A stretch of DNA of 64,000 bases from Mariniblastus fucicola (GTDB lineage: Bacteria > Planctomycetota > Planctomycetia > Pirellulales > Pirellulaceae). Location: the NCBI RefSeq assembly GCF_008087665.1, contig NZ_CP042912.1:62001-126000 (forward strand). Reading direction: 5' to 3'. A program made the translations under genes and the position numbers. Position 1 is the first letter of the stretch; every line of letters begins with the position of its first letter. This document shows positions 15,616-32,628 of the stretch, in pieces. The notes under the pieces are model-generated. The model did not search any database. It was not told the origin of the DNA and worked only from the letters and a program-made list of their open reading frames with translations.

Positions 15616-17065
15616 GGATGTCGCGAATCACGTTGGCTTCCTTGACACCGGTAAGCTTCTGATCGAGTCCCTGGAAGGGAACGGAAAATTTGTGGTGGTC
15701 GATGCCCAACAAATGCAGCAGCGTTGCGTGGAAGTCACGTAGATGCACCGGGTTCTCGACCGCGTTATAGCCGACCTCATCGGACGCACCGTAGGTCATG
15801 CCGGCTTTAACGCCACCGCCAGCCATCCACATCGTGTAGGCTGACGGGTTGTGGTCGCGGCCGTAAAACGCCATCTCTTTGCCGCCGCGATTTTCACGCA
15901 TGGGAGTCCGGCCAAACTCGCCGCTCCAGACGACAAGCGTGTCGTCCAACATGCCGCGCTGCTTCAAGTCAGCGATCAATGCCGACATCGGACGGTCGAC
16001 GGATTTGCACTTGGTGATGAAGCCGTGGTTGAGTGACTCGCCCTTGTTGGAACCGTGCGTGTCCCAGCCCCAATCGAAAAGTTGAACGAAACGGACGCCC
16101 TTTTCGACCAGACGCCGAGCCAGCAGACAGTTGTTGGCGAACGATTGCTTGCCAGGCTGAGCACCGTACATCTCCAGCGTTTCTTTGGACTCCTGTTTAA
16201 TATCCATCGCGTCGGGAACTTCGTCCTGCATCCGGAACGCCAGTTCGTACTGCGCGACCCGGGTCAGCGTTTCGGGATCGCCGAACTTTTCATAGGACTC
16301 GCGATTCAGCTTTCCTAACGCGTCAAGCATTTCGCGGCGACGATCTTTGGTAACGCCTTTCGGGTTGGAAATGTTCAGCACCGGATCGCCCGTCGATCGA
16401 CATTGCACTCCCTGGTAAACCGAAGGAAGAAATCCACCGCTCCACAACGCCTTGCCGACGCGAGGTTGGCGTCCGCCCGAAAGCAGCACGACGAATCCTG
16501 GCAGATTCTCGTTTTCCGCACCCAGTCCGTACGTCACCCACGATCCGATCGAAGGATAACCCAGTCGCGGCTGTCCGGTATGGACCATCAGCTGAGCCGG
16601 TCCATGATTGAACTGGTCCGTCTGCATGGACTTGATGAAGCATACGTCGTCGACGTGTTTGGAAAAGTGCGGCAAGCGGTCGGAAACCCAGGCTCCCGAT
16701 TTACCATACTGTTTGAACGGAAAGCGATGCCCCAACATCTGCGGCGTCCCCTGGATGAACGCAAAACGCTTTCCTTCAAGGAAACTTTGCGGGCAGTTCT
16801 TGCCATCAAGCTTTTTCAGATCCGGTTTGAAATCAAACAGCTCCAATTGGCTCGGCGCGCCAATCATGTGCAGGAAAATCACCCGCTTGGCTTTCGGAAT
16901 CGCCTTCGAAGCATCCGCGTCGCGAAGAACCGTACCAGCTTTGGCTTTGGAAGACTGAGACGCCAACCAGATCGCGCCCAAGCCCGTCGAGCACTGTCCG
17001 AGGAAGTGCCGTCGTGTTGTATTCAGCAGAGTTTTGTACTTCAGTTCGTTTTCGAGTTCGCTCAT
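15608..17065 (-). CDS. DUF1501 secreted protein
   Basis: A 485-residue protein of the DUF1501 family, related to the alkaline phosphatase/sulfatase fold. The N-terminus has TRRHFLGQ followed by a hydrophobic stretch, a Tat-like signal in which only one Arg pair is conserved. Characteristic sequences are RVIFLHMIGAPSQLELFDFKP, DTHGSNKGES and VVWSGEFGRTP. In planctomycetes this gene is almost always paired with a DUF1549/DUF1553 cytochrome protein, as here: its ATG overlaps the stop of that gene by four bases, showing one operon and coupled translation. The substrate is unknown; a role in degrading or oxidising extracellular polymers is commonly proposed but not shown. Confidence 0.93.
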   Translation of the reverse strand: MSELENELKYKTLLNTTRRHFLGQCSTGLGAIWLASQSSKAKAGTVLRDADASKAIPKAKRVIFLHMIGAPSQLELFDFKPDLKKLDGKNCPQSFLEGKRFAFIQGTPQMLGHRFPFKQYGKSGAWVSDRLPHFSKHVDDVCFIKSMQTDQFNHGPAQLMVHTGQPRLGYPSIGSWVTYGLGAENENLPGFVVLLSGGRQPRVGKALWSGGFLPSVYQGVQCRSTGDPVLNISNPKGVTKDRRREMLDALGKLNRESYEKFGDPETLTRVAQYELAFRMQDEVPDAMDIKQESKETLEMYGAQPGKQSFANNCLLARRLVEKGVRFVQLFDWGWDTHGSNKGESLNHGFITKCKSVDRPMSALIADLKQRGMLDDTLVVWSGEFGRTPMRENRGGKEMAFYGRDHNPSAYTMWMAGGGVKAGMTYGASDEVGYNAVENPVHLRDFHATLLHLLGIDHHKFSVPFQGLDQKLTGVKEANVIRDILV

Positions 17066-19998
17066 TTCGTCAGTACCTCATCAAGGTTCAGGAAAACGCT
17101 GGCAAGGGCATTCCAGCCTTCGGCCTTGCTGTCATCATCGTATGCGGCCAACAAATTCACCGACGTTTCAATTTCTTCTGACTCCGGTTCGCGGCAAGTC
17201 GCCAACAGAAATCCTTTGCGAATCTGTTCGTTGATGTCGCCGTCGAATGACTGCATCCGTTTGGCAAATGCTTCAGCGCACTCAATCATCGTTTGGTCAT
17301 TAAGCGTCATCAGAGCCTGAATCGGAGTGTTCGACGGAAGTCGACGCGGCGTACAAACTTCACGCGACGGAGCATCAAAGGCCGCGAACATCGGATACGG
17401 AATGCTGCGTTTGGTGTACGTGTAAATGGCGCGGCGATATCGATCTTCGGAATTGGTATCCGGCGTCGTCCATTTGTCCCAACTGGCGAATGGTTTCCAG
17501 ACGCCATCGGGCAAAGGCGGACGCACCGGCGGACCAAATTTCTTGTCGCTGAGCAAGCCGGCGATTGCCAGGGCCTGATCGCGGACGACTTCGGAAGAAA
17601 GTCGATTACGTGGTCCTCGGGCCAACATTCGATTGGCCGAGTCCTGTTCTTGTAGCTCCGGACGGATCGCTGAACTCTGCCGATACGTGCTCGAAAGGAC
17701 AAGTTGTCGAAGCAATTTCTTCTGGCTCCAACCGAACTCGTTTTGAAACTGCAACGCGAGAAAGTCCAGCAGACTTTGATTCGAAGGCATCTCGCCCGAG
17801 GAACCAAAGTCTTCTTCGGTGGCGACCAATCCATTGCCGAACAGGCGTGCCCAGAAACGATTCACCGCCACCCGTGCGGTGAGCGGATTGTCGGGGCCAA
17901 CCATCCAGTTCGCCAAATCCAACCGCGACTTTTGCGAATCTTCCGGCAGCGAATTGAACGCAGCGGGTGTGTCTCCCGTAACCGTATCGCCCTTGGTCAG
18001 GTACAGCCCGCGAATGAAAACCTGTTGGCTGCGAGCCAGGCTGGCAGGACGCTCTTTGAGCACCGGCACGGAAGTCGACTTGATGGCCCCGCGTCGTTTC
18101 TTCGTCGCCGCCAACTCGCGGCGGTTCGTCTTAAGCGTTTCATCTGATGCAAGTTTGGCGAATTCGTCTGAATCCGTAACCGCGAGGTGACCACGCTTTG
18201 TCACCAACGGAAACGCACCCAGTGCTTCGCCACGGTGCTTGAGCACGATTTGCAGTTTCGCATTTTCAGGAATGTCCGTCGCCGACTCGAGCACTAGCGC
18301 CGCCGTTCGAGGTCGATAAATTCGCGTGTAAGCACCAAATCCGTTCTTGGATTTCTCGCTCAGGCTGTCGTTCGGATTGTGAAACGGATCGGCTTCGTCA
18401 CCAATCAAACGCTCGATCTTAATCGCAACCGGATCCTTCTTGCCAGGAACAATCCAGTGAGCCATGACGTGGGAAAGAATGAATCCCCATTCGGAATCCT
18501 GCAGCGCGCTTTTCGGATTCAGCGGCATCGCCGTGAAGCGGATCGCCGTGATGTTCGACAGGCCTTGCGGCAGCGCGGCGGTCAACGTGATGTCGGTGCC
18601 CTTGCTGACCGTGTCGACAGTGTGGAACTCCGCGTGGTCAGCTTTCGATTCAACGGTGACTTGAGTCTGGTTGCTCGTTTTGGCTTGCAGGTCGACAACC
18701 GCTTTCCAGTCAGCTTTGCTTTCGACGACCGAAAACTGCGGCTCCCAGACCGACTGTTTGAGTTCAGCAATTTTCAGATCCAACTCGGAAGCTTTGTCGT
18801 AATCTTTCGTGTTGTTCGGAGCGTTGATCGTCGGCCAATCCTCACCCAAATCGGAGTCAGCCGTGTTGTTGAAGAAAGCCGCGAACTTGTAGTACTCCTC
18901 GTGGCGAATCGGATCGTAAGGATGGCTGTGACACTGAACGCAGCCAAAAGTCACGCCCTGCCAGGCTTGCCAGGTGGTGTTGGTGCGGTCCAAAACGGCC
19001 GCGATACGAAACTCTTCATCGTCGGTGCCGCCTTCCTCGTTGGTTTGCGTTAGCCGATGCGCGGCCGTCGCGATGTAGTCCTCAATTTGCGGATCAGGCA
19101 ACAAGTCTCCAGCGATCTGCTTGACGGTAAATTCATCGAAAGGCAGATCGCGGTTGTAAGCGTCGATAACCCAGTCGCGATACTTCCAGATCGTCCTTGG
19201 TCCGTCCAGGCCCAGCCCTTTCGAGTCCGCGTAGCGAACCTGATCCAACCACACGCTCGCCCAACGCTCACCATAGGAATCCGATGCGAGCAATCGATCA
19301 GCGACGTCCGCGTAGGCTTGTTCTTTTTGTTCCGCATTCTCGCAAGCAGCCAAAGCTTCGAGGAACTGGTCGCGTTCCTCCAGCGTCGGCGGCAGACCCG
19401 TCAGGTCCAGCGTCGCCCGACGCAGCCAACGTACCGGCTCGGCTTCTGCTGCAGGCTTGATGTCGTTGGCTTCCAGCTTGGCCAGAACGAAATGATCAAT
19501 CGGTTGGCGAGCCCAAGCTTTGTCTTTTGTTTCCGGCAACGTTTGAGGCAACGGCTTTTCGAACGCCCAATGGTTGCTCCACTTGGCACCCTGCTTGATC
19601 CACTGTCTGACCAATTCAACTTCGTCTTCGCTCAGCCCGGCACCGTGATCCGGCGGAGGCATCTTTTCATCCGCGTCGTCGGTAAGAATCCGTTCCATCA
19701 GTAGCGAATCATCCGGTTCGCCCGGTTCGACGATCCAGCCCTCCGGTGCAACGACCTGGTCGCGGTAAACGAAAGAAATATCAGCGGCCTGTTTGACGCC
19801 GCCATGACAGGCCGTGCAATGTCTGTTCAGAATCGGCTGGATGTGGACGTTGAACTGGATCTTGTCCGCATGGTTCGGTTCCTCAGCCGCAAGTTTGTCC
19901 GATTGCAATGTCTGAAAAAGAAGTGCGAAGCAAAGAAGCAACGTCAATTTCGAAACACCGATCGCGATCGATGGCTTTCGTTTTTGCGTGAACATCAT
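17062..19998 (-). CDS. PSCyt1/DUF1549/DUF1553 planctomycete cytochrome protein
   Basis: A 978-residue exported protein. After the signal peptide a C-type haem motif CTACH lies at about 61-65 in the planctomycete cytochrome domain (PSCyt1), with the partner region LSEDEVELVRQWIKQGA. The DUF1549 domain (PSCyt2) covers about 160-370 (PIDHFVLAKLEANDIKP, DQVRYADSKG, FGCVQCHSHPYDPI, with a second CxxCH). The DUF1553 domain (PSD1) covers about 680-950 (RLDLANWMVGPDNPLTARV, VNRFWARLFGNGLV, RRSIPYPMFAAFDAP). The ATG at 19998 is preferred over the in-frame TTG at 20007. It lies between the FecR/LamG gene and the DUF1501 gene in a four-gene minus-strand unit. Confidence 0.93.
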   Translation of the reverse strand: MMFTQKRKPSIAIGVSKLTLLLCFALLFQTLQSDKLAAEEPNHADKIQFNVHIQPILNRHCTACHGGVKQAADISFVYRDQVVAPEGWIVEPGEPDDSLLMERILTDDADEKMPPPDHGAGLSEDEVELVRQWIKQGAKWSNHWAFEKPLPQTLPETKDKAWARQPIDHFVLAKLEANDIKPAAEAEPVRWLRRATLDLTGLPPTLEERDQFLEALAACENAEQKEQAYADVADRLLASDSYGERWASVWLDQVRYADSKGLGLDGPRTIWKYRDWVIDAYNRDLPFDEFTVKQIAGDLLPDPQIEDYIATAAHRLTQTNEEGGTDDEEFRIAAVLDRTNTTWQAWQGVTFGCVQCHSHPYDPIRHEEYYKFAAFFNNTADSDLGEDWPTINAPNNTKDYDKASELDLKIAELKQSVWEPQFSVVESKADWKAVVDLQAKTSNQTQVTVESKADHAEFHTVDTVSKGTDITLTAALPQGLSNITAIRFTAMPLNPKSALQDSEWGFILSHVMAHWIVPGKKDPVAIKIERLIGDEADPFHNPNDSLSEKSKNGFGAYTRIYRPRTAALVLESATDIPENAKLQIVLKHRGEALGAFPLVTKRGHLAVTDSDEFAKLASDETLKTNRRELAATKKRRGAIKSTSVPVLKERPASLARSQQVFIRGLYLTKGDTVTGDTPAAFNSLPEDSQKSRLDLANWMVGPDNPLTARVAVNRFWARLFGNGLVATEEDFGSSGEMPSNQSLLDFLALQFQNEFGWSQKKLLRQLVLSSTYRQSSAIRPELQEQDSANRMLARGPRNRLSSEVVRDQALAIAGLLSDKKFGPPVRPPLPDGVWKPFASWDKWTTPDTNSEDRYRRAIYTYTKRSIPYPMFAAFDAPSREVCTPRRLPSNTPIQALMTLNDQTMIECAEAFAKRMQSFDGDINEQIRKGFLLATCREPESEEIETSVNLLAAYDDDSKAEGWNALASVFLNLDEVLTK

Positions 19999-20074
19999 GT
20001 GGATCAATTCAGTTCGTAGGGTGATGGTTTATTCTTGCAGGTGAGACTCCTTTCCCAGCCCAATCAATTTTTGG

Positions 20075-21757
20075 TCACATGGTAAGCAAACTCAAATCCG
20101 TTTTTGGTCCAGAACTCTTTTTTCGGGCAGCTTCCAAGTGGGCTTTGATCTCGTCATCTGACATTGCCCGTTCGTAGATCGCCACTTCGTCGATTTGACC
20201 GATGAAGGATCGCTCAATTCGGTGTGGGTAAAGTTGTCCAATCACAACAACGAGATTTTCTGCCAATGGCAACTTCTCCTCGATACTGGACACAAATTTG
20301 CCGTCGATGAAAAGCTCAAGTTCCTTACCTCTTTTCCTCGCAACAATGTGTTGCCATACCCGAACCTTGTACTCGTCACCGCCATAGCAGGACGTTCCGC
20401 CCGACGGCGCAGGTGGTGCACGATGAAGAAAACGAAACCGGTTTGGGCGTGTGTGATAGTCAAACTCGTGATAGGGGGCTCCAATTTCAAGCATCAAACC
20501 ATGAATTCTGCTGTTGGGAGCGCATAAGCCAATCATCGCGCCGTTGTGGTAATGCGAAGGCTTTGCCCACAGTTCAATCGTGTATTCTTCGAGAGGTTTT
20601 TCTGGCCAATAATCGGTGGTGACGAAACCACTGCCTTGAGCCGAAAGGCCAAATTCCGCAGTCACATTCTCACCGAACTGCTTGCGGTGCACCTTGCCTT
20701 TCATGTAAGCGTTGAACCTGTCCGACATTTCGTTATGCACGATGTCGCTGCCTTCAAAGCGCCAGTAAATTCTCGGCTCTGACTTCATGACGGCATCGCG
20801 ATAATTTTCATCCAGACCAAGCCGGTCAAAAGACATGCTTCGTTTGGATGCAAAACTACTTTCGTCCGCGACCTTTCTCGAAACCGTAATCTCACCATCC
20901 GGTTTCAATACAAATCCAGCAGACTCACCCTTGGGGATCTCGATTGGTCCAACCGATTCATCGATCGCATAATAGCTTTCGATTTTCGCGACACCGCCGA
21001 AAGAGTGCACGAGGCCTTCCGAAAATCTTGCATCAACGCCAATTGAGGCGTTGCCGGAAAACAGAACCGCACCGTTGGGGATGTCGATGCGAAATTCGCC
21101 CACGCTATGGTTGGCCTTCGCCGTCAGCATGCCATTTCGCAATCCCAGCTGTCCGTCGGAACGTACGTAAAAATTTGCCGGACCTTCGATAAGAATCGTC
21201 GCTGATTCGCCGTAAAGATTTCGAACGCTAAACTCAGCGATCCCCTCAAGCAGTTGAATCGGCTCTCCGAAACTGAGCGATTTGCCGACCGACGCTGAGG
21301 ATTCCGAATCCCACACGCAGGCTGTCGTGGCTACAAGCCGTGGCGTTTTTTTGGAGTCCACGGCAACTTGATTTGCGTCGCTAGAGCCCAGGAATACTGA
21401 AGTAACGCTCCAACACAGATTCGCAAGCAGCAACACGGCAACGGCGCAGGACAGCATTGTCGAAAGTCGCGGCATATTGCCCCACCGAGTCAAAGATCCA
21501 CCCGATCCACAGTTTTTCCTGTCGCTGGCTTCCTTGCGATCCAAGCCAGCAAAGTCCAGTCCGTAAACCGGAGACTGAGCTCCGCTGCGTTCGGTCAGCA
21601 AAGTATCCATTTCCAGATACTGCAAATATCGTCGACGACAATCCTCGGAACCGTCCAACATATCAGCAAGTTCGCCGGATTCCTCAACTGAAAGATCGCC
21701 GTCAACGACGCGACTTACAAGCTGGGACAATCGTTTTAGTTGTTTGTCATTTTCCAT
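20075..21757 (-). CDS. FecR-like/LamG-domain transmembrane protein, likely anti-sigma
   Basis: A 560-residue membrane protein. Residues 1-80 form a short helical cytoplasmic part (VDGDLSVEESGELADMLDG) like the N-termini of planctomycete anti-sigma factors. A single membrane segment lies near 100-125. A FecR-like beta domain follows (about 140-290; LLEGIAEFSVRNLYGESATILIEGPANFYV), then a C-terminal LamG/concanavalin-like domain (about 345-540; EYTIELWAKPSHYHNGAMIG). It sits 2 bases after the sigma factor gene, so the two are a sigma/anti-sigma pair by context. LamG domains often bind glycans; an extracellular ligand controlling the sigma factor is inferred. Confidence 0.82.
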   Translation of the reverse strand: MENDKQLKRLSQLVSRVVDGDLSVEESGELADMLDGSEDCRRRYLQYLEMDTLLTERSGAQSPVYGLDFAGLDRKEASDRKNCGSGGSLTRWGNMPRLSTMLSCAVAVLLLANLCWSVTSVFLGSSDANQVAVDSKKTPRLVATTACVWDSESSASVGKSLSFGEPIQLLEGIAEFSVRNLYGESATILIEGPANFYVRSDGQLGLRNGMLTAKANHSVGEFRIDIPNGAVLFSGNASIGVDARFSEGLVHSFGGVAKIESYYAIDESVGPIEIPKGESAGFVLKPDGEITVSRKVADESSFASKRSMSFDRLGLDENYRDAVMKSEPRIYWRFEGSDIVHNEMSDRFNAYMKGKVHRKQFGENVTAEFGLSAQGSGFVTTDYWPEKPLEEYTIELWAKPSHYHNGAMIGLCAPNSRIHGLMLEIGAPYHEFDYHTRPNRFRFLHRAPPAPSGGTSCYGGDEYKVRVWQHIVARKRGKELELFIDGKFVSSIEEKLPLAENLVVVIGQLYPHRIERSFIGQIDEVAIYERAMSDDEIKAHLEAARKKSSGPKTDLSLLTM

Positions 21758-21759
21758 AA

Positions 21760-22302
21760 TCAGTCACTAATCTCAGCTGCCAGTCGTCGGTTGACACATT
21801 CCAATAGCCTCTCGCGAATTCGGTGCAACAGGATGCTAATCGCATTCGTGGTTCGCCCGAGATCGGCGGCGATCGCTTTGACGGAATTGGAGTCCATATA
21901 GCGTCGCGTAACCAAATTCTGTTGCTCTGTGGGGAGCAGGCTCACACAAACTTCCAGTGCTGATTTTCTGTCAACACATTGTAGCTCGTCCTTGAGTGAG
22001 GCCTCTGTGTGGTTCAGCTTTCGCATGAGTTCATCCGAAAAAACAAGCCTCTCTCGTGCTTGCATCTGCCGGAAGGAAAGCAGTTCAAAGTGGGCCACCG
22101 TAAATGCCCAAGCCATGAAGTTCGAACCCTCGGTGAAGTCACCGGCTTTCTTGCAAATCGCCAAATTGACGTTTTGCAGCACCTCTTGAGCCTGATCAGC
22201 ACGCGCCAGCCTCCGCAGAAGATAGGAATAGAGCCGCGGTTGAGCTTCTGTCAGACCAAGCACGACCTCAACGGTCAGCCCATATTCGTTTTTTTCTGAC
22301 AT
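21760..22302 (-). CDS. ECF sigma factor (Rhodopirellula/Verrucomicrobium type)
   Basis: A 180-residue RNA polymerase sigma-70 family protein. Region 2 includes QPRLYSYLLRRLARADQAQEVLQNVNLAICKK and NFMAWAFTVAHFELLSFRQ; region 4 is LPTEQQNLVTRRYMDSNSVKAIAADLGRTTNAISILLHRIRERL, a helix-turn-helix for the -35 element. It is the first gene of the minus-strand unit that continues with its probable membrane partner, the cytochrome/DUF1549 protein and the DUF1501 protein. This suggests it controls those genes or others of the same kind. The short extracytoplasmic layout (regions 2 and 4 only) defines it as ECF. Confidence 0.92.
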   Translation of the reverse strand: MSEKNEYGLTVEVVLGLTEAQPRLYSYLLRRLARADQAQEVLQNVNLAICKKAGDFTEGSNFMAWAFTVAHFELLSFRQMQARERLVFSDELMRKLNHTEASLKDELQCVDRKSALEVCVSLLPTEQQNLVTRRYMDSNSVKAIAADLGRTTNAISILLHRIRERLLECVNRRLAAEISD

Positions 22303-24426: not shown

Positions 24427-25101
24427 ATGGGAACCGCAGATTCACTGAAGCAGAAGAAGAGCCAATGGCTTCCTGCAGCTGCTGATGTTCGCGGCAACCT
24501 GGTGCGAATGATTGCGATTCTGGGCTTCTACGCAGTTCATTTGCTGAACTATTTCTTGCCCGCTCTCGGCGAATCTGCGGTTCGCACCGCTGTCGGACTC
24601 AAAGGCCCATCGGTCTCCGGCGTCGTCCACCTCGCGGTCTCGATTCTCGTTTTCGCCTGGTTGTTGCAGGCCATGGGCGTTCATCTGGCTTCGATGACGC
24701 GGCCACTAACTCGAAAGTTGGCCCTCGCGGTGATTGTCGGCGATGTTGTCTGGCTGACGGCGGCGCTTTGTTTCTCCACCGGAGCTGCCGGACCGATGGT
24801 GGCGGGCTACTTTTTAATCCTTGGACTTTCGGCACTGCGGCTTGATCTGCGGCTGATTCGTTGGGCGACAGTGGCTACATGTTTTGGATACCTGTTCGTG
24901 CTCGGAGCAACTCGCTGGCCGGTCGGTTTGCTGAAAGAAATTCAGGTCGAAGCCGTTCCCCGATATCACCAAATCATGACGATCGTCGCGCTGATCCTGA
25001 TGGGAGTCGTGCTTGGACAAGTTGTCCGTTTGGCTTGGGGCATAGTGGCCTCGCATCGCCGCGTCGAGCTTGGCGGGCAATCGGAGGTCCCACATGAGTA
25101 A
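24427..25101 (+). CDS. Polytopic membrane protein of unknown function
   Basis: A 224-residue protein with about six hydrophobic segments (from RMIAILGFYAVHLLNYFLPAL to IVALILMGVVLGQVVRLAW) and no soluble domain. The layout resembles the membrane input domains of some sensor kinases and cyclases, but no catalytic domain follows. ATG 24427 is preferred, with an AGG ribosome binding site; a GTG at 24391 would add 12 residues. Its 3' end overlaps the next gene by 8 bases, so it is the first member of a three-gene operon with a zinc-ribbon membrane protein and a Tes-like radical SAM enzyme. A membrane-lipid or sensing role is inferred from context only. Confidence 0.7.
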   Translation: MGTADSLKQKKSQWLPAAADVRGNLVRMIAILGFYAVHLLNYFLPALGESAVRTAVGLKGPSVSGVVHLAVSILVFAWLLQAMGVHLASMTRPLTRKLALAVIVGDVVWLTAALCFSTGAAGPMVAGYFLILGLSALRLDLRLIRWATVATCFGYLFVLGATRWPVGLLKEIQVEAVPRYHQIMTIVALILMGVVLGQVVRLAWGIVASHRRVELGGQSEVPHE

Positions 25102-25723
25102 CCCCATCGACCCGGTGGCAGATGTCGTTGTCGCCACGATGCTTTGTCCCGTGTGCGAGGCTGATCTGTCGCCCGACGCAGCGGTCTGTTTTCAGTGCGG
25201 ATGCGTTTCGGTCGATCCGAACGTGAACCCATTCGCGTTGCCTGCCGAACGGCCCGCGAAGGCTCCGAAAGGTATTGAAAACGAAACGAAGTTTACTTCC
25301 TCACTCATCAGCATGCTGCTGACTGGAGGACTGGTCGGCGTTTTGGTTGCCGTCGGTCTGGCGTCGCCGGGACTCGCGATTTTGCTGGCCTTGATGGCGA
25401 TTCCGCCATGGATCCGAACAACTCTGGTCGTTTTTAAGCGATCCAAAACAGGATTGGCGACGGACAACTTCGCCAGAGCAACGCTCTTTTTCGGTTCCGC
25501 AATGGTGAGCTGGCTAGTGCTGGCGGTGTCGCTAGTCAGCTGCTTCTTGACATTCTGTGCAGTTTGCTGGGTGACGCTGATCAATGGTCCGGAACGAATG
25601 AATGATTCATCCACCCAATACCTGCTGTACGGAACTCTGGGCGTTACATTCCTGGTGATCCTGGGAATCTTCAGTCCGTGGATTCTGTACCGTTGGAAAC
25701 GTGACACAACTCGGGAACGATAA
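25094..25723 (+). CDS. Zinc-ribbon membrane protein
   Basis: A 209-residue protein with an N-terminal zinc ribbon (CPVCEADLSPDAAVCFQCG, near residues 18-36; two CxxC pairs), then an NPFALP motif related to the planctomycete NPY element, and four hydrophobic segments (roughly 70-120 and 135-200). The ATG at 25094 follows a strong GGAGG at 25084-25088 and overlaps the upstream gene by 8 bases. Its stop overlaps the start of the radical SAM gene (TAATG). The gene order and overlaps suggest a stoichiometric complex or pathway with the radical SAM enzyme. The function is unknown. Confidence 0.75.
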   Translation: MSNPIDPVADVVVATMLCPVCEADLSPDAAVCFQCGCVSVDPNVNPFALPAERPAKAPKGIENETKFTSSLISMLLTGGLVGVLVAVGLASPGLAILLALMAIPPWIRTTLVVFKRSKTGLATDNFARATLFFGSAMVSWLVLAVSLVSCFLTFCAVCWVTLINGPERMNDSSTQYLLYGTLGVTFLVILGIFSPWILYRWKRDTTRER

Positions 25724-27222
25724 TGGCCGGCCAACTTAATGCACATCTCTATCTCGGCACGACGCAGAGTCTTTGTCCCGATTGCCTCAACGTCGTTCCG
25801 GCAAAGATCGTCAATCGAGATGGCCAAATCTGGTTCGACAAATTTTGTCCGGACCATGGTTCTCGCAGCGACTTCGTCTGCAGTGATGCGAAGTGGTGGG
25901 ATCGCATGGAGTTCAACGTTCCGGGACGCCGACCGGTGAAGTTCGGCGTCGAACCCAATCGCGGTTGTCCTTACGACTGCGGGCTCTGCACTCAACACGA
26001 ACAACACACATGCATCGCGGTTTTGGAGCTAACCGATTCCTGCAATTTGAAATGTCCGATGTGCTACGCCGCCAGCGGTCCCGGCAGAAAGCATCTGACG
26101 TTCGACCAATGTGTTGCCGCGATCGATCGCCTGGTCGAAGTCGAAGGCCGACCGGAAATCCTGCAGCTCTCCGGTGGTGAACCGACCATCCATCCGCAGT
26201 TCGCCGAAGTATTGCAATACGCCTGCGATCAGCCTATCGATTTGGTGATGGTCAACACGAACGGTATTCGAATCGCGAGTGATGAAAGACTGGTCGAAGT
26301 TCTTGCTCAGCAAAAAAACCGTTGCCAGATCTATTTGCAGATGGACGGGCTCAACGATCGCAGCAACGAATATCTCCGCGGCGAATCTTTGCTCGATCGC
26401 AAAATGAAAGCCACCGAAGTCCTGGGTGCCGCTGGCTTGAACGTGACGCTGGTCGCGACGATGCAGCCCGATTTGAACATGGATCAGATCGGTCCGCTGA
26501 TCGAATTCGCAATTCAGCGTCCCTGGATCACAGGAGTCAGCTTTCAGCCGGCAACTTACGTCGGTCGCAGTGCGCTGCCGGAGGACCTCTCGCGTCGCAT
26601 CACGTTTCCGGACATCATCCGCGAAGTCGAATTGCAAACGCAGAGCCGATTCCGTGAAAGCGACTTCTTTCCGATCCCTTGTGCTCATCCCAACGCCCAC
26701 ACGTTGTGTTATGCCTTTCGCAGCGGCACCGAAGTTGTTCCTGTGACTCGGTTCGTCGACATCGAGAAACATTTTGATCTGCTGGCCAATGGAATCAGTT
26801 TGAATCGCGAAAACACGCGGCAAATCGTCGAGCAATTGATGCTCCGCGAGTCCTGCGGTCCGGGTTGCGACTGCAGCGGCGGCGCGGAAATCGAAGGCGG
26901 GCTGGTTTCGCTGATGCAAAGCAGCACAGCGCCGAAAACCAACGGCAGCGACATCGATTGGGCATCTCTTGCAAGCGATTTTTTCAGCCGTGCGATGAGT
27001 GCCGATCTTGGCAACGCCGACATGTTCCGGATCACAACGACCAGCTTCATGGACGTCTACAACTTCGACATCCGTCAGCTGATGAAATCCTGCGTGCACC
27101 ATCTACTGCCTTCGGGTCACCTGGTTCCGTTTTGTGCCTGGAACGTGCTCTATCGAGACGGCCACATTCCGTTGCCGGATCTGGAGAAAGCCAAACTCGC
27201 CGACACGGTTAATCTGTCGTAA
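25723..27222 (+). CDS. Tes/MJ0619-type radical SAM enzyme
   Basis: A 499-residue radical SAM protein. The N-terminal Cys-rich module has CPDC (18-21), CPDHG (42-46) and GCPYDCGLC with a later Cys (82, 86, 89, 97). The canonical SAM-cluster motif follows as C107-x3-C111-x2-C114 (CNLKCPMC). More cysteines lie near 384-392 (CGPGCDC) and in the last 50 residues. This arrangement, including the HEQHTC linker, is that of the MJ0619/tetraether lipid synthase (Tes) group, whose characterised members bind several [4Fe-4S] clusters. One known activity is coupling lipid tails between sp3 carbons; a pterin methylase activity has also been reported for MJ0619. Translation is coupled to the upstream zinc-ribbon gene. 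Whether this protein makes membrane-spanning lipids here is inference. Confidence 0.88.
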   Translation: MAGQLNAHLYLGTTQSLCPDCLNVVPAKIVNRDGQIWFDKFCPDHGSRSDFVCSDAKWWDRMEFNVPGRRPVKFGVEPNRGCPYDCGLCTQHEQHTCIAVLELTDSCNLKCPMCYAASGPGRKHLTFDQCVAAIDRLVEVEGRPEILQLSGGEPTIHPQFAEVLQYACDQPIDLVMVNTNGIRIASDERLVEVLAQQKNRCQIYLQMDGLNDRSNEYLRGESLLDRKMKATEVLGAAGLNVTLVATMQPDLNMDQIGPLIEFAIQRPWITGVSFQPATYVGRSALPEDLSRRITFPDIIREVELQTQSRFRESDFFPIPCAHPNAHTLCYAFRSGTEVVPVTRFVDIEKHFDLLANGISLNRENTRQIVEQLMLRESCGPGCDCSGGAEIEGGLVSLMQSSTAPKTNGSDIDWASLASDFFSRAMSADLGNADMFRITTTSFMDVYNFDIRQLMKSCVHHLLPSGHLVPFCAWNVLYRDGHIPLPDLEKAKLADTVNLS

Positions 27223-27288: not shown

Positions 27289-28764
27289 ATGGAACTCAAA
27301 TCAGTTTCACGCATCCGTTTGGTAGTTTGCAGATCGCTGTTGGCCTTCCTGATTGGAGTCGCTGTCCAGACGCAAGCCAATGCAAATGAAGACGCGCCCC
27401 GAAAACCAAACATCATTTTGATCATGGCCGATGATGTGAGCTGGGAAGCGTTCGGGTGCTACGGCGCGGAAGATTACAAGACGCCGCAGATTGATCGGCT
27501 TGCTCGTGAAGGCGTTCGGTTCACCCACTGTTACTCGACGCCGATCTGCACGACGTCGCGGGTGAAGATCATGACCGGGAAGTACAACTTTCGAAACTAC
27601 ACGCACTTTGGCTATCTGAATCCGAAAGAGAAAACGTTTGGCCACATGCTTCAATCCGCCGGCTACAAGACAGCCGTTGCTGGCAAGTGGCAACTGAACG
27701 GACTCTATAATTCGCTGCCCGGACACGACGACGCCGACCGGCCTCACAAAGCAGGTTTTGATGAGTACATGTTGTGGCAGTTGACGACCGGAAAGGGCGG
27801 AGCCAAAGATCTCGGTGGCGAACGTTTCTGGAGCCCGCCGATTGAACACAATGGAAAATTCCTGACCAAGGAGATGAACGAAGGCAAGTACGGTCCGGAT
27901 ATGTTCTGCGAGTTCATTTGTGACTTCATGGAGAGAAACAAAAGCGAACCGTTCTTCGTGTACTACCCGATGGTTCTGGTCCACGATCCGTTCGTGAAAA
28001 CGCCCGATACGATTGGTGACGATGAGCGACTTTACAGCGCCAACGCCCGGCCGAAAGGCAAAGCACAGAAGAAAAAAAACTTTGTCGCCATGGTCAATTA
28101 CATGGATAAAATCGTCGGTCGAGTCGCGAAGAAAGTCGAAGACATTGGCCAAGCCGAGAACACGATCATCCTGTTCACCGGCGACAACGGAACGAACCCT
28201 TCGATCACATCCCGATGGAATGGGCAAAACATCTGTGGCGGCAAAGGAGGCATGAAGGACATGGGAACGCATGTGCCGCTGGTCGCGTATTGGAAAGGCC
28301 ACACGCCAAAGGGCGTTGTCCTGGACGACTTGGTGGACTTCACCGATTTCTACGCGTCGTTTGCAGAAGCGGCAGGCGTTGAGCCTGACTCTGATGATCC
28401 GATTGACGGAAGAAGCTTCTTGCCTCAACTCGATGGCCGCGCTGGCAACCCAAGAGACTGGGTACTGTGCCACTACGAACCCTATTGGAACAAAAAGTCC
28501 GGACAGTTCGTCCGCAACGGCAACTACAAACTTTATCGCGACGGGCGAATGTTCAACGTCCCGGATGACCTCAAGGAAGAAAACGATCTTTCGAAGTCAA
28601 CGGATCCACAGATTCGCGCCGTCCACGATGACTTTTTGAAGTTCCTTGAAAGCTGCCCGCCCGCGCCGACTGGAGAGCGAGCCGGCAGCAAAACCAAACA
28701 ACGACCGGTCTACCCCGATTGGAAGAACCTGTTCGGACCAGGCGAGAAAGAGTCTGATTCCTGA
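27289..28764 (+). CDS. Secreted arylsulfatase-family sulfatase
   Basis: A 491-residue type I sulfatase with signal peptide (cleavage near NANEDA). The metal-binding DD is in NIILIMADDVSWEAFGCYG (48-49). The formylglycine motif is C87-T-T-S-R91 followed by VKIMTGKYNFRNY; Cys87 would be oxidised to formylglycine. The usual CxPSR has Thr in place of Pro here. The second metal site is FTGDNGTN, and the C-terminal region includes GNYKLYRDGRMFNV. Planctomycetes carry many sulfatases for sulfated algal polysaccharides. The gene is single, with 66 bases after the radical SAM gene and no shared overlap, so it is probably separately expressed. Confidence 0.93.
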   Translation: MELKSVSRIRLVVCRSLLAFLIGVAVQTQANANEDAPRKPNIILIMADDVSWEAFGCYGAEDYKTPQIDRLAREGVRFTHCYSTPICTTSRVKIMTGKYNFRNYTHFGYLNPKEKTFGHMLQSAGYKTAVAGKWQLNGLYNSLPGHDDADRPHKAGFDEYMLWQLTTGKGGAKDLGGERFWSPPIEHNGKFLTKEMNEGKYGPDMFCEFICDFMERNKSEPFFVYYPMVLVHDPFVKTPDTIGDDERLYSANARPKGKAQKKKNFVAMVNYMDKIVGRVAKKVEDIGQAENTIILFTGDNGTNPSITSRWNGQNICGGKGGMKDMGTHVPLVAYWKGHTPKGVVLDDLVDFTDFYASFAEAAGVEPDSDDPIDGRSFLPQLDGRAGNPRDWVLCHYEPYWNKKSGQFVRNGNYKLYRDGRMFNVPDDLKEENDLSKSTDPQIRAVHDDFLKFLESCPPAPTGERAGSKTKQRPVYPDWKNLFGPGEKESDS

Positions 28765-28816
28765 CTGATATTTCCCAGAGGGTTGGACGCTAGCCATCCA
28801 AACAAACGTACCCGCC

Positions 28817-28848
28817 TTGACTCAAGTACATTTGTAAATGTATATAGT
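28817..28848 (+). promoter_or_regulatory. blaI-type promoter overlapped by operator
   Basis: TTGACT at 28817-28822 is a near-consensus -35 box; TATATA (28841-28846) or TATAGT (28843-28848) can serve as -10. The first TACATTTGTA operator lies between the boxes, so a bound repressor would block RNA polymerase. Confidence 0.65.
28827..28836 (+). promoter_or_regulatory. BlaI/MecI-type operator box 1
   Basis: TACATTTGTA is an inverted repeat with TACA/TGTA half-sites, the consensus of BlaI/MecI/CopY repressor boxes. An overlapping TGTAAATGTA at 28833-28842 extends the element. It lies between the -35 and -10 boxes of the repressor gene's own promoter. Confidence 0.8.
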
Positions 28849-28857
28849 TGGTCCAGC

Positions 28858-28867
28858 TACATTTGTA
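28858..28867 (+). promoter_or_regulatory. BlaI/MecI-type operator box 2
   Basis: A second exact copy of TACATTTGTA, 31 bp centre to centre from the first (three helical turns). The flanks TCAAGTACA before box 1 and TGTACTTGA after box 2 are also mutually inverted, so the whole region is a large imperfect palindrome. Confidence 0.8.
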
Positions 28868-28898
28868 CTTGAACAGTCGACTGATTGGAAATCCCACG

Positions 28899-29291
28899 AT
28901 GGCAGAACGGCCAGCACTTTCGAAAGGTGAGATGACGGTTGCCAGAGCGCTATGGAAAGTAGGGCCGGCGATTGTCAGAGACATCTTCGAAGAGGTTACT
29001 GCCAATGAGCGCATGAGTTTTTCAACTGTGCAGACCTACCTGCGTCGCTTGCAATCCAAAGGCTACGCGAATTCAAGGCTAAAGGGTCGATTGCGAGTCT
29101 TCTCTGCTCGAACGCGTCCGACGACTGTCATTCGCGAAACCGTTGACGAATTTGTTGATCGACTCTTCGGCGGTGAATCAATGCCTTTGGTACGGCATTT
29201 GATTGAAGAAAGAGGCATCAACAAAGCCGATCTGGATGAACTCCGAAACTTGCTCGAAAGCTACGAAGCGGAAGGAAATAGCGATGAATGA
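28899..29291 (+). CDS. BlaI/MecI/CopY-family repressor
   Basis: A 130-residue winged-helix repressor: LSKGEMTVARALWKVGPAIVRDIFEEV, then MSFSTVQTYLRRLQSKGYA as recognition helix and wing, with a C-terminal dimerisation helix. In the family, dimers bind TACA/TGTA boxes and are removed when a BlaR1-type membrane protease is activated. The ATG at 28899 is chosen over one at 28848 because the longer form would extend through operator box 2 and the -10 region. The gene overlaps the BlaR1-like gene by 8 bases. Two operator boxes lie in its promoter, indicating autoregulation. Confidence 0.92.
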   Translation: MAERPALSKGEMTVARALWKVGPAIVRDIFEEVTANERMSFSTVQTYLRRLQSKGYANSRLKGRLRVFSARTRPTTVIRETVDEFVDRLFGGESMPLVRHLIEERGINKADLDELRNLLESYEAEGNSDE

Positions 29292-31839
29292 TACGAACCT
29301 GTTCTCGCTGCTCACTACGCAGACATGGCAAGTTGTTGTCGTTGCTGTCGTGGCATGGACACTGTCGCGGAAGTTTGCTTCTGACCGGCCACACCTCGCA
29401 CATGCACTCTGGATGCTGGTGCTCCTGAAGGCCATCACGCCGCCGATTTGGTGTAGTCCGACCAGTCCATTCAGTTGGCTCGCGTCGCATAATCCAACGA
29501 CGTCTTTGCAGTCCGTCGAACAATCAGATTTTGAGTTCCCCACACCTTCGCTGGAGTCAAACTCATCGAGGGTAGTGCAGAATCCAACTTCATCGCCCGC
29601 TAAGAAGCTACATCAATTCAACCGGGAAACTGGCACGCATTCGTCACCCAGATGGCTGGGAATTGAGTTTTGGAAGAACTCCCTCAAGGAGGTTCTCATA
29701 GTTGGCTGGTTGGCGGGCTTTGCAGTCAGTTTTCTGCTGTTACTGGTTCGCTACATTGCATTGCTACGGACGATCCAAAAATCTGAATCCGTTGTTCGGC
29801 CGGATATCGATGAGTTGACCGGCAAGCTTTCGAGGCGTCTTGGGATCCGTCGCCGAGTCAGAGTTCTCATTCTGGAAAATGAAATCGGCCCTGTTGTTTT
29901 GGGAATCGCAAGTCCGACCATTGTCCTGCCGGCACTTGTTGTCCGCAAGCTGAACATGAATGAGATATCGCTGTTGCTCGCCCATGAGCTAACTCATCTG
30001 CGCAGAGGCGATTTGTGGTGGGCGGTGGTGCAGGCTCTGGCAAAGAATGTTCTTTGGTTCCATCCGTTCGTCCATCTTGCGGAGCGTCGTGCTACTCAAG
30101 AGGCGGAACGCAGCTGCGATGAGGATACTGTGGCCGCGATGAACTGCAGTCCAATGGCCTACGCGAGATGTTTACTGAAAGTATTGAATCACAAACACCA
30201 GTTGCGTTCTGTCCCGGCATTGCCCGGGGTGCGACCGGTAGATATTACCCTGGCTCGAATGGAGAGAATTATGAAACTTGGACAAGGAAGTCCGCGAAGT
30301 GTTCCGGCGATAATCTGGTTGGTTTTGCTAGTGGGATGTGCACTCACCCTTCCCGGCGCCGGAATTACCCGTGCTCAGGAAAAGCAGGCGACCGATCGCA
30401 CTGAATCCTCGAAGAAAGACAGCAACTCTCAACTTCGCCAAGCCTATTTCGGCTCGGAGCCATTTCAAAAATTTCAACAGTCTATGGCGTCGCTTACCGC
30501 ATCTTCGAAAGCGTCGTCACGTCCAGTCGTGCTGAAGACGAAGTTGTACTCGAAGTTGTACTCGCTGCGGGACTCTGACGTCGAGCAGCTGGATATCGAC
30601 TGGTCTGCGTATCAGGATTGGGATGACGATGAAACCGGTTTGAGCGAGAGACTCCTGGATGTCGAAAAGGAAATATCGATCGTCTACAACAACCCAACGA
30701 AGTATGCCATCCTCGATCACGAGCAATGTGCGAATCTGTTGAGTCAGATCAATCAGCAAAAGCATGCTCGTGAAACGCCGGTTTCTGACGTGACGGTCGG
30801 CAACGAGATGGCATTCGTGACTACCGGCGTCGAATCGGACTACGAAGCTGGAGTCATTGAGTTTGAAAATCGGCCGACTGAAACCCGCAAGGTTTTGCGA
30901 ACTTTCAAAACTGGATTGGATTTGTCTGTGAAGATTGAAACGAAAGAAGACGGGTCTTGTTCAGTCGGTAGCGTCTTTATGTTCTCGGGCGTTACAAATG
31001 TGTCAAAGCCTGGCGAAGCGATGAAAAATACTGGCCAGGATTCCAAACCCGAAAAACCGCGAGTCACACATAAAATCGCCATTTCGAAAATTGATTTTTT
31101 GGCAGACCAAAAAGCCGCTCTTCTGGTCTACGACGAAACTCAATCTCCCTGGTTGGCTGTCTACGAGTGTCGTCCTGCAACAGACGTTAACTCAGATTCA
31201 ATGACGGTCCAGGCGAGCTATGAAGCGGACGCAGACGATCTACCAAAGTACGAATTCGTCATCAGTAGCAACGGCGACGCGACAACTGAATTGGGCGATT
31301 GCCGCACGCTCGACTATTTTGGCCACAAGTTAGCGGTTACCAAAAGTGTTGTGCTTTCGAAAAAGGACGGTCGAACTGTGCTCATTGGTACCGACATTGA
31401 ATGGAGGCGAAAGAACCGGATCGTTGCTTCTGCAAGGAGTGGACAATTTGAATTCTCGGATGACGGAAAGTCTTACGTGATCAGCCTCAAGGGCAAAGCG
31501 CGGTGCTGGATGGGCGAATCGGAGCTTGTCGAAGCTGATGAAATCGACACTAGCTACAACGAGAACTCAGTGAAGATGGATTTCCGTGGGGCAGTGCAAA
31601 TCACCCATGCCGAACCGATCTATTCTGGAGACGATTACCGCGGCCCCAATATTTCTGCGGACCATGTGTGGCAGGAAAATGGATCGGTTTTGAAATGCTC
31701 AGGGAATGTTTGTGTTGTGGAAAGAACCATTGATGGTAGGCCTACAACGACTCGGGCCGAGGAAGTTCAATTGGTTCCCGCAAAGACAAAAACAGCTTTT
31801 GGCAAAAACGTGAAAGTTGAAATTCTCGACCATAAATAG
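29284..31839 (+). CDS. BlaR1-like M56 peptidase with OstA-like tail
   Basis: An 851-residue membrane sensor-protease. The N-terminal ~340 residues hold four membrane segments and the M56 metalloprotease site HELTH (about 233-237, in LLAHELTHLRRGDLWW), plus ERSCDEDTVA downstream as third zinc ligand region. After a further membrane segment (about 342-360) comes a ~500-residue external part that is not a penicillin-binding domain as in true BlaR1. Its last ~100 residues (RGPNISADHVWQENGSVLKCSGNVCV, then a FGKNVKV end) resemble OstA/LptA-type beta-jellyroll strands. The gene overlaps the repressor gene by 8 bases. The likely action is cleavage of the repressor on sensing an unknown envelope signal. 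Confidence 0.85.
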   Translation: MNDTNLFSLLTTQTWQVVVVAVVAWTLSRKFASDRPHLAHALWMLVLLKAITPPIWCSPTSPFSWLASHNPTTSLQSVEQSDFEFPTPSLESNSSRVVQNPTSSPAKKLHQFNRETGTHSSPRWLGIEFWKNSLKEVLIVGWLAGFAVSFLLLLVRYIALLRTIQKSESVVRPDIDELTGKLSRRLGIRRRVRVLILENEIGPVVLGIASPTIVLPALVVRKLNMNEISLLLAHELTHLRRGDLWWAVVQALAKNVLWFHPFVHLAERRATQEAERSCDEDTVAAMNCSPMAYARCLLKVLNHKHQLRSVPALPGVRPVDITLARMERIMKLGQGSPRSVPAIIWLVLLVGCALTLPGAGITRAQEKQATDRTESSKKDSNSQLRQAYFGSEPFQKFQQSMASLTASSKASSRPVVLKTKLYSKLYSLRDSDVEQLDIDWSAYQDWDDDETGLSERLLDVEKEISIVYNNPTKYAILDHEQCANLLSQINQQKHARETPVSDVTVGNEMAFVTTGVESDYEAGVIEFENRPTETRKVLRTFKTGLDLSVKIETKEDGSCSVGSVFMFSGVTNVSKPGEAMKNTGQDSKPEKPRVTHKIAISKIDFLADQKAALLVYDETQSPWLAVYECRPATDVNSDSMTVQASYEADADDLPKYEFVISSNGDATTELGDCRTLDYFGHKLAVTKSVVLSKKDGRTVLIGTDIEWRRKNRIVASARSGQFEFSDDGKSYVISLKGKARCWMGESELVEADEIDTSYNENSVKMDFRGAVQITHAEPIYSGDDYRGPNISADHVWQENGSVLKCSGNVCVVERTIDGRPTTTRAEEVQLVPAKTKTAFGKNVKVEILDHK

Positions 31840-31890: not shown

Positions 31891-31920
31891 CAAAAGGTGT
31901 TGCGAAAGTGACACCTTTTG
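31891..31920. repeat. Perfect hairpin before Lgt-like gene
   Basis: CAAAAGGTGT (31891-31900) and ACACCTTTTG (31911-31920) form a 10-bp perfect stem with a 10-base loop, ending 3 bases before the ATG at 31924. It could terminate the BlaI/BlaR1 transcript, though no long T-run follows. It could also sequester the AGGTG that would serve as ribosome binding site. Confidence 0.7.
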
Positions 31921-31923
31921 GCC

Positions 31924-32628
31924 ATGAACATCCCTCACTTTTTGACAATGCTGCTCGCGCTCGCGGCCGGGTTTGTGCTTTCGCGGTTTAGCCAAAAGAA
32001 GTTGCCGCTGACGACGGCGCAGAAATTCGGATTAGGCGTTGGCGGTTTGATTGGCGCGATGACCGGAGCGAAGCTTCCGTTTCTGTTTACCGATTGGGAT
32101 CAGTTCATTTCGGGAGCCGCGTGGTTTTCCGATGGCAAGACAATTCTGACGGGACTGGTCGGCGGATACCTTGGCGTGGAAGCCGCGAAGTGGGCGTTCG
32201 AAGTCAAAACGAAAACCGGAGACAGCTTTCTGATTCCGGTAGCCATCGCAATTGCAATCGGAAGAGTCGGTTGCTTCTTCGGCAGTTGCTGTTTCGGGAC
32301 GCCAACAGAGATGCCCTGGGGAGTCGTGTTCCCGAAAGTCGATGCGATCGCTCGACATCCAACGCAGCTTTACGAAACCATGTTCCACCTTTCGGCCGCC
32401 GCGATCGGTTGGTGGGCTCAGTCGAAAAACTGGTGCACGGGAAACCGGATCAAGATCTATATCGCCAGCTACGCCGGCTATCGGTTTGTCAGCGAATCGA
32501 TTCGTCCCGAGGCAAGGATTTTCGCGGGCTTCACGAGTTATCAGATAGCCAGCCTGTTGATCGCCGGGCTGATGATCTGGCTTTGGCTGCGAGACGTTCA
32601 GTCGCAAGAATCATCGGGCAGCGAATAG
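31924..32628 (+). CDS. Lgt-like (prolipoprotein diacylglyceryl transferase family) protein
   Basis: A 234-residue polytopic membrane protein of the Lgt family. The signature RVGCFFGSCCFG (near 115-127) corresponds to the Lgt RxGNFxNxE-type segment but is Cys-rich, and RHPTQLYETMFH and RFVSESIRPE match the conserved C-terminal motifs. True Lgt transfers diacylglycerol to lipobox cysteines. The shorter length and the altered signature make a divergent paralogue more likely than the main Lgt. ATG 31924 is preferred; a TTG two codons earlier lies within the hairpin at 31891-31920. No obvious ribosome binding site is free. Confidence 0.75.
   Translation: MNIPHFLTMLLALAAGFVLSRFSQKKLPLTTAQKFGLGVGGLIGAMTGAKLPFLFTDWDQFISGAAWFSDGKTILTGLVGGYLGVEAAKWAFEVKTKTGDSFLIPVAIAIAIGRVGCFFGSCCFGTPTEMPWGVVFPKVDAIARHPTQLYETMFHLSAAAIGWWAQSKNWCTGNRIKIYIASYAGYRFVSESIRPEARIFAGFTSYQIASLLIAGLMIWLWLRDVQSQESSGSE

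Follow-up and report, generated by a model that had tools for sequence, protein, structure and literature searches.

A Tes-fold radical SAM enzyme linked to an Lgt-like membrane protein in Mariniblastus fucicola and other bacteria: a possible membrane-modifying module

The locus and its coupled genes

We analysed a window of 64,000 nucleotides from the planctomycete Mariniblastus fucicola (assembly GCF_008087665.1, contig NZ_CP042912.1, positions 62,001 to 126,000), which carries the gene of a radical S-adenosylmethionine (SAM) enzyme, called P0001 here, and, on the same strand, the gene of an integral membrane protein resembling Lgt, the enzyme that lipidates lipobox cysteines (Table 1). P0001 has the fold of the tetraether lipid synthase GDGT-MAS, or Tes (MJ0619). 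We found that such enzymes and Lgt-like proteins are encoded together in three phyla, commonly with small cysteine-bearing membrane proteins, and that the enzymes of this clade carry a different set of C-terminal cysteines from archaeal Tes.

P0001 (499 residues from its ATG) contains all the motifs on which an original prediction, made for this stretch, had based its Tes/MJ0619 layout, i.e., CPDC and CPDHG (the CPxC/CPDHG module), GCPYDCGLC, and CNLKCPMC. It matches the Pfam models Zn_ribbon_HMPTM, in its N-terminal part (3e-18), and Radical_SAM (2.2e-21). The gene is present in a single copy, the two other matches in the genome being weak and limited to the radical SAM core, and its closest named relative belongs to Mariniblastus sp. 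ALOHA_ZT_22 (65% identity). Within the genus, the enzyme is patchily distributed, with a close match in 10 of 27 genomes (G001-G027), many of these assemblies being incomplete.

The coupling of P0001 to two membrane genes, memA and memB, through overlapping stops and starts can be read directly from the sequence, as the original prediction had it: the memA stop (TAA, 25099-25101) lies beyond the memB start (25094), and the memB stop (TAA, 25721-25723) shares one base with the ATG of the radical SAM gene. Neither memA nor memB matches a Pfam family at 1e-3; a double zinc ribbon alone was seen in memB, below the Pfam cut-off. Clear homologues (E below 1e-14) precede the radical SAM gene in 11 (memA-type) and 12 (memB-type) of the 56 loci examined, all within the subclade of the window, and five more loci give weak memB-type matches (E 6e-6 to 0.008), two of which (L138, L148) lie outside this subclade. 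Hence, the expected co-occurrence of both genes holds beside close homologues, but is clear there only, and we rejected memA and memB as the defining partners of the enzyme. The main conserved partner, missed at first, is the Lgt-like gene, which an insert separates from the operon in this window.

Table 1. Features of the window discussed in the text
Feature	Position	Strand	Remarks and basis
Radical SAM enzyme P0001, GDGT-MAS/Tes fold	25723..27222	+	Bacterial clade linked to an Lgt-like gene
memA, membrane protein, 224 aa, first gene of the operon	24427..25101	+	Open reading frame and overlap with the next gene
memB, zinc-ribbon membrane protein, 209 aa	25094..25723	+	Cys158 a possible lipidation target; family alignment
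Lgt-like membrane protein, 234 aa from ATG	31924..32628	+	TTG start at 31918 possible; PF01790, fold, linkage
Insert between the partner genes, outside the module	27289..31839	+	Pfam; Lgt-like gene directly follows the enzyme in most close relatives
Sulfatase within the insert	27289-28764	+	Pfam
Penicillinase_R repressor within the insert	28848-29291	+	Pfam
M56/BlaR1 peptidase within the insert	29203-31839	+	Pfam

Elsewhere in the window, positions 17062-22302 of the minus strand hold a typical planctomycete block, with a PSCyt1/PSCyt2/PSD1 protein, a Laminin_G_3 protein, and a sigma-70-family factor.

Fold, phylogeny, and cluster cysteines of the enzyme

By sequence, P0001 has a single close relative of solved structure, GDGT-MAS (7tol, E 3.6e-70, covering residues 13-479). 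Its AlphaFold model, computed from a 29-sequence alignment (pLDDT 84) and read by secondary structure and fold searches only, aligns with 7tom at Z 44.4 over 425 residues (root-mean-square deviation 3.1), while matches outside the family go from Z 20.4 downward and include the peptide maturases SuiB (20.4) and SkfB (19.7). The predicted Tes/MJ0619 architecture is thus borne out: P0001 shares with GDGT-MAS the full-length predicted fold, the rubredoxin-type CX2C...CX2H, the N-terminal cluster cysteines, and the CX3CX2C motif. However, its score against the NCBIfam model for Tes (NF045702, 299.5 bits) stays under the cut-off of 450, which is exceeded in 57 of the 61 archaeal genomes used as a positive control. 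Its top NCBIfam match is the (seleno)protein TrsS (NF045646, 325.7 bits), again under the cut-off (490). P0001 shares Cys97 with all 10 TrsS rows of our alignment; the TrsS rows nevertheless form a clade of their own (support 100/100), outside which P0001 falls.

We also compared the enzymes by phylogeny, using unrooted trees built without acidobacterial Tes and Mss. In the 132-row tree, one branch (SH-aLRT, an approximate likelihood ratio test, 99) has all 56 Lgt-linked enzymes and 25 other bacterial rows on one side, apart from the 17 archaeal Tes and 10 TrsS rows; in a tree thinned to 55 rows, 37 bacterial rows are separated from 18 rows of the Tes/TrsS side with support 100/100. The approximately unbiased (AU) test rejects a grouping of Tes with the subclade of the window (p 8e-90, for a group named after the tree had been seen). 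P0001 therefore has the Tes architecture without membership of Tes, and its assignment to that group did not survive the trees. Genes of Tes type are nevertheless present in these phyla, as two bacterial rows, L159 and L173, group with archaeal Tes. The membrane-spanning lipid synthase Mss couples chains in bacteria, and its models are reported, in the accessible part of that work, to conserve the Tes catalytic architecture (PMC13274423).

The difference from Tes is concentrated at the C-terminal cluster. GDGT-MAS is described as holding a rubredoxin site, an N-terminal cluster, the radical SAM (RS) cluster, and, close to the two lipid sites, a C-terminal cluster termed [Fe4S4]C, of which Met439 is a labile ligand; Tyr459 is strictly conserved in archaea (PMC9433317). 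P0001 keeps the rubredoxin site (C18/C21/C42/H45), the N-terminal cluster (C82/C86/C89, with H92 conserved as the putative histidine ligand), and the RS cluster (C107/C111/C114). At the [Fe4S4]C positions, taken as the three C-terminal cysteines conserved in 17/17 archaeal rows, it has A325, S456, and C471, and Met439 and Tyr459, both likewise present in 17/17 archaeal rows, are replaced by T440 and H460. The extra C-terminal cysteines that had been noticed in P0001 do exist (among them C320, C457, and C471), but they differ from the Tes set, since other residues occupy two of the three [Fe4S4]C positions.

A similar loss is seen in much of the clade. The full Tes triad is kept in 18 of the 56 Lgt-linked enzymes and at least two of its three cysteines are lost in 37, one row being C-terminally incomplete. 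Another triad is present throughout: Cys97 and Cys320 in 56/56 and Cys457 in 55/56, the exception being the incomplete row. Among the archaeal Tes rows, by contrast, Cys97 and Cys320 occur in 0/17, Cys457 in 1/17, and the whole triad in none. In the model, Cys97 is predicted just before the first barrel strand, and C-terminal strands follow Cys320 and Cys457; the three residues may ligate a re-wired auxiliary cluster. A divergent Omnitrophota branch (L174, L175, L184, L214) does without the N-terminal cluster cysteines and keeps two of those of the C-terminal cluster.

The Lgt-like partner and the small cysteine proteins

The product of the Lgt-like gene matches PF01790 at 8.6e-30 (104.3 bits for a cut-off of 24.9). 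The genome holds two LGT genes, a canonical-type one scoring 181 bits and this shorter paralogue, scoring 104 bits. Its AlphaFold model (pLDDT 91) finds Escherichia coli Lgt (5azb) at Z 13.9 over 228 residues, the next match being at 6.8. A Z of about 14 can be unspecific for mainly helical models; the gap to the next match, the Pfam score, and the residues are nevertheless in agreement. In E. coli Lgt, mutants of Arg143, Arg239, Glu243, Arg246, His103, and Glu151 are reported as inactive, as are those of Tyr235 except the partly active Y235T (PMC4728403, as far as its accessible text goes). Equivalents of Arg143, Tyr235, Arg239, and Glu202 are found in 33/33 Lgt-like proteins, that of Glu243 in 31/33, and that of Arg246 in 28/33 (Lys in the other 5); the protein of the window has those of Arg143, Tyr235, Arg239, Glu243, and Arg246. 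It shares with Lgt its predicted fold and these residues, and differs from it in being a second, shorter paralogue, lacking His103 and tied to a radical SAM gene. From sequence and model, a transferase activity is plausible.

In most close relatives, an LGT (PF01790) gene homologous to positions 31918-32628 of the window directly follows the radical SAM gene. An enzyme match at E <= 1e-25 was obtained in 59 of 392 planctomycete genomes, and the linkage counts are based on every one of the 72 enzyme matches listed and on 66 of those listed for the Lgt-like protein. Among the matches listed, an Lgt-like gene stands within 8 kb on the same contig in 40 of these 59 genomes. In each of the 41 pairs, both genes share a strand, the Lgt-like gene being downstream in 22 and upstream in 19, and 38 pairs lie within 700 bases; conversely, 37 of the 40 best Lgt-like matches are within 8 kb of an enzyme. 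Five of the six genomes of the same genus with a methyltransferase-type paralogue only have no Lgt-like match at 1e-6, and the sixth (G009) has a split one (54.6 bits). Such paralogues form a second subclade of the genus (L060-L063, L059 partly; 31-35% identity), without an Lgt-like gene alongside, in the order DUF547 (by Pfam on L060), radical SAM gene, class I methyltransferase-like gene with CC...FHPGG, and, by eye, a large RND-like membrane protein. Other Planctomycetota loci (L141, L143-L147) each carry at least two Tes-family radical SAM genes with no Lgt-like gene alongside.

The pair also occurs outside Planctomycetota, in two further phyla. The enzyme is matched in 18 of 193 Omnitrophota genomes; in nine of the best 10 of these 18, an Lgt-like gene lies on the same strand at most 2.1 kb away, and the enzyme of the tenth (G480) sides with archaeal Tes in the tree. 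In the eight weaker genomes, no Lgt-like gene was found in short loci (about 1.5 kb of flank, and 20 kb for G606). In the phylum of Tepidanaerobacter, called Bacillota-type here, six of 398 genomes have a match at 1e-60 and three of the six carry the pair (G811, G893, G1015); G893 has in addition two tandem enzymes without an Lgt-like gene. A methyltransferase-like gene was seen by eye beside the enzyme in G1006 and G858, and neither it nor an Lgt-like gene in G1001. Of the nine Omnitrophota cassettes, eight have an ICMT/PEMT-like gene, in either order, and the order radical SAM, ICMT/PEMT-like, DUF4395, Lgt-like is found in four. The cassette of G1015 is similar (DUF4395 by Pfam and a 234-aa gene, ICMT-like by eye); an apparent ICMT/PEMT-like gene was seen, likewise by eye, in one Bacillota-type cassette (L239). 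Some genomes with the gene set are single contigs (e.g., G365, G397, G438). After the pair of L238, positions 7151-8565 carry ArsP_1 permease and Se/S-carrier-like genes, and similar-looking permease and carrier genes lie downstream of the enzyme in L208 and L209 (by eye). Searches of an open-access library for Tes together with Lgt, and for Lgt-like proteins or C-terminal lipoboxes, gave no description of the pair among the papers listed.

Many of these cassettes have a third component. Those of Omnitrophota/Bacillota type encode a small membrane protein with a C-terminal helix and, after it, a cysteine whose surroundings often resemble a lipobox (e.g., PFILLGGC, PLVLLGTC). We defined such proteins as open reading frames (ORFs) of 60-260 aa, on the same strand and within 1.3 kb, with a cysteine 1-20 residues from the C-terminus and 15 preceding residues that are hydrophobic and free of Asp, Glu, Lys, and Arg. 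They were found at 32 of 55 loci, i.e., 12/12 of Omnitrophota/Bacillota type and 20/43 of planctomycetes. Near the enzyme, they amount to 18/81 ORFs vs 2/269 elsewhere in the former and to 27/300 vs 7/2121 in the latter, a contrast overstated by the spurious ORFs among the controls, the loci not being independent either. Among called membrane genes, the figures are 27/59 near and 4/58 far (p 2e-6), and the four far ones (in L126 and L142) sit in runs adjoining the same loci. None was found at 48 related radical SAM loci without an Lgt-like gene (0/172 ORFs), the flank covered being about 1.5 kb for most of those from archaea and the TrsS group; likewise, at 15 loci from the TrsS and Bacillota-type searches, mostly with the same flank, neither an Lgt-like gene nor a small cysteine protein was found alongside. 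Three earlier definitions gave, for the same called membrane genes, 14/59 vs 3/58 (lipobox-like cysteine, p 0.007), 31/59 vs 9/58 (any cysteine near the last helix and the C-terminus, p 3e-5), and 24/59 vs 10/58 (internal lipobox, p 0.008); over all ORFs, the internal lipobox occurs in 41/372 vs 24/2399 and at 26 of 53 loci. Ten of the small proteins were scanned and had no Pfam match above the curated cut-off. Runs of small cysteine membrane proteins lie beside the module at L206:9179-10253, L142:3553-5762, and L051:8986-10681, as might be expected of substrates.

The counterpart of these proteins in the window is memB, which matters otherwise than had been noted, as a member of a family with a conserved transmembrane cysteine. 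Of 23 aligned members, 20, 19, 20, and 20 have the ribbon cysteines 18, 21, 32, and 35, and 21 have Cys158. By the positive-inside pattern, judged by eye, Cys158 would lie where a transmembrane helix reaches the outer face, the side on which Lgt acts. A known parallel is the MYXO-CTERM/myxosortase system, with an invariant cysteine near the C-terminus by a transmembrane helix, for which lipidation by an Lgt-like enzyme is proposed (PMC11980579). In that system, however, the cysteine precedes the helix, the topology is inverted, processing is by a CPBP protease, and no radical SAM enzyme is mentioned in the accessible text.

A proposed membrane module and its alternatives

The data support a membrane module over a stand-alone Tes. 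We tentatively favour, at somewhat less than even confidence, a conserved bacterial module that modifies membrane lipids or lipoproteins and is made of the radical SAM enzyme, the Lgt-like protein, and, commonly, small cysteine proteins. In this module, the Lgt-like protein would transfer a diacylglyceryl group, taken from phosphatidylglycerol or some related lipid, to the outward cysteine of a small protein (Cys158 of memB), as Lgt does to a lipobox cysteine. The cytosolic radical SAM enzyme would bind lipid chains in a tunnel like that of GDGT-MAS and functionalise or couple their C-H carbons, with its auxiliary cluster re-wired through Cys97, Cys320, and Cys457; the order of the steps is conjectural. 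Our confidence is limited because the step from linkage to chemistry is one that we infer. A more specific version, which we consider unlikely as it stands, is that lipidation of small, in many cases zinc-ribbon, membrane proteins at an internal or C-terminal lipobox, followed by Tes-fold chain chemistry, tethers the protein to a modified, possibly membrane-spanning, lipid; the ICMT/PEMT-like gene could complete this chain, a functional analogue of CaaX processing.

Several observations weigh against such a module. Among the matches listed, an Lgt-like gene is missing from the 8 kb around the enzyme in 19 of the 59 planctomycete genomes: many of them have tandem radical SAM arrays or methyltransferase-linked enzymes, one (G114) has an archaeal-type Tes, in G051 a copy of 53% identity stands on another contig, and in at least one (G217) the enzyme is 293 bases from a contig end. 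A genome of the same genus (G017) has only a weak Lgt match (33.6 bits), its enzyme lying 335 bases from a contig end. At 23 of the 43 planctomycete loci, including the window, no small protein with the C-terminal cysteine was found, and in memB Cys158 is internal, with another helix after it. Moreover, the definition of these proteins was framed after the Omnitrophota cases, three others having been tried earlier, so that the test is partly post hoc; and C-terminal helices are commoner near the enzyme in general, the same definition with glycine giving 33/59 vs 9/58. There is also a problem of sides: Lgt works on the outer face of the membrane, and the radical SAM enzyme should be cytosolic.

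On the side of the Lgt-like protein, His103 (of the HGGL motif), though needed in E. coli, is present in 0/33, and Asn146 and Glu151 are not kept; the window protein has Val for His103 and Cys for Glu151. Where E. coli Lgt has HGGL, the canonical-type Lgt of the same genome (L042) itself reads VYGSMIG, and both Asn146 and Glu151 are replaced by Cys in it. Not every residue on which E. coli Lgt depends is therefore universal, and we rejected the loss of this histidine as proof that the Lgt-like protein is dead.

The best-placed alternative, improbable in our view but to be taken seriously, is a membrane-spanning-lipid synthase: the enzyme would join fatty-acyl tails, as in diabolic acid or branched glycerol dialkyl glycerol tetraethers (brGDGTs), while the Lgt-like protein would present or extract a phospholipid or edit its head group, the cysteine proteins being accessory. 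GDGT-MAS is the closest solved relative of P0001, and, when made in E. coli, it holds bacterial phospholipids (PMC9433317); bacterial Tes homologues are proposed as makers of brGDGTs (PMC8941075), and brGDGTs of the Black Sea are tentatively attributed to Planctomycetota among others (PMC11868695). Against it, P0001 does not keep two of the cluster cysteines beside the lipid sites, nor Met439 and Tyr459, the full Tes triad is present in just 18 of the 55 Lgt-linked enzymes readable at the three positions, and the enzyme is phylogenetically apart from archaeal Tes; in the accessible text of the cited literature, we found no lipid data on a Pirellulales isolate. The suggested operon for modifying membrane lipids retains its membrane context; its identity as a Tes/tetraether synthase is not supported.

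In a system akin to those of ribosomally synthesised and post-translationally modified peptides, the radical SAM enzyme would act on the small cysteine proteins as its peptide substrates, and a lipid anchor would be added by the Lgt-like protein. Radical SAM peptide maturases are common, and the small proteins do occur in tandem copies (three in L206, several in L142, L126, and L127). This scheme is nonetheless distinctly unlikely, the match to the lipid enzyme (Z 44) being far above those to SuiB and SkfB, and the conserved cysteine being predicted to face outward and not the cytosol. Hardly as probable is a catalytically altered Lgt-like protein serving as a lipid-binding scaffold, with an enzyme that makes a soluble product or cofactor, as perhaps in the TrsS group: the top NCBIfam match of P0001, the permease and carrier genes after one cassette (L238), and the missing His103 would fit it, but TrsS is a separate clade, P0001 scores below its cut-off, and all or most of the 33 Lgt-like proteins retain the other residues essential in E. 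coli. Lastly, an ordinary bacterial Tes homologue with chance neighbours, although Tes homologues are already reported from Planctomycetota (110/684 metagenome-assembled genomes, PMC11868695), is contradicted by same-strand linkage in both gene orders and three phyla, and we hold it very improbable.

That bacterial Tes homologues exist was already known, and they are discussed as candidate makers of the brGDGTs used in palaeoclimate work (PMC8941075, PMC11868695). The present analysis indicates that a whole clade of them, Pirellulales included, has a different C-terminal cluster and an Lgt-like partner, often with small cysteine proteins. In view of this altered cluster and of this partner, tallying its members as tetraether synthases may therefore mislead. 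The clade offers a concrete gene set in which to seek a new lipid or lipoprotein modification, and the co-inheritance of the enzyme and the Lgt-like protein points to an undescribed mode of bacterial membrane modification.

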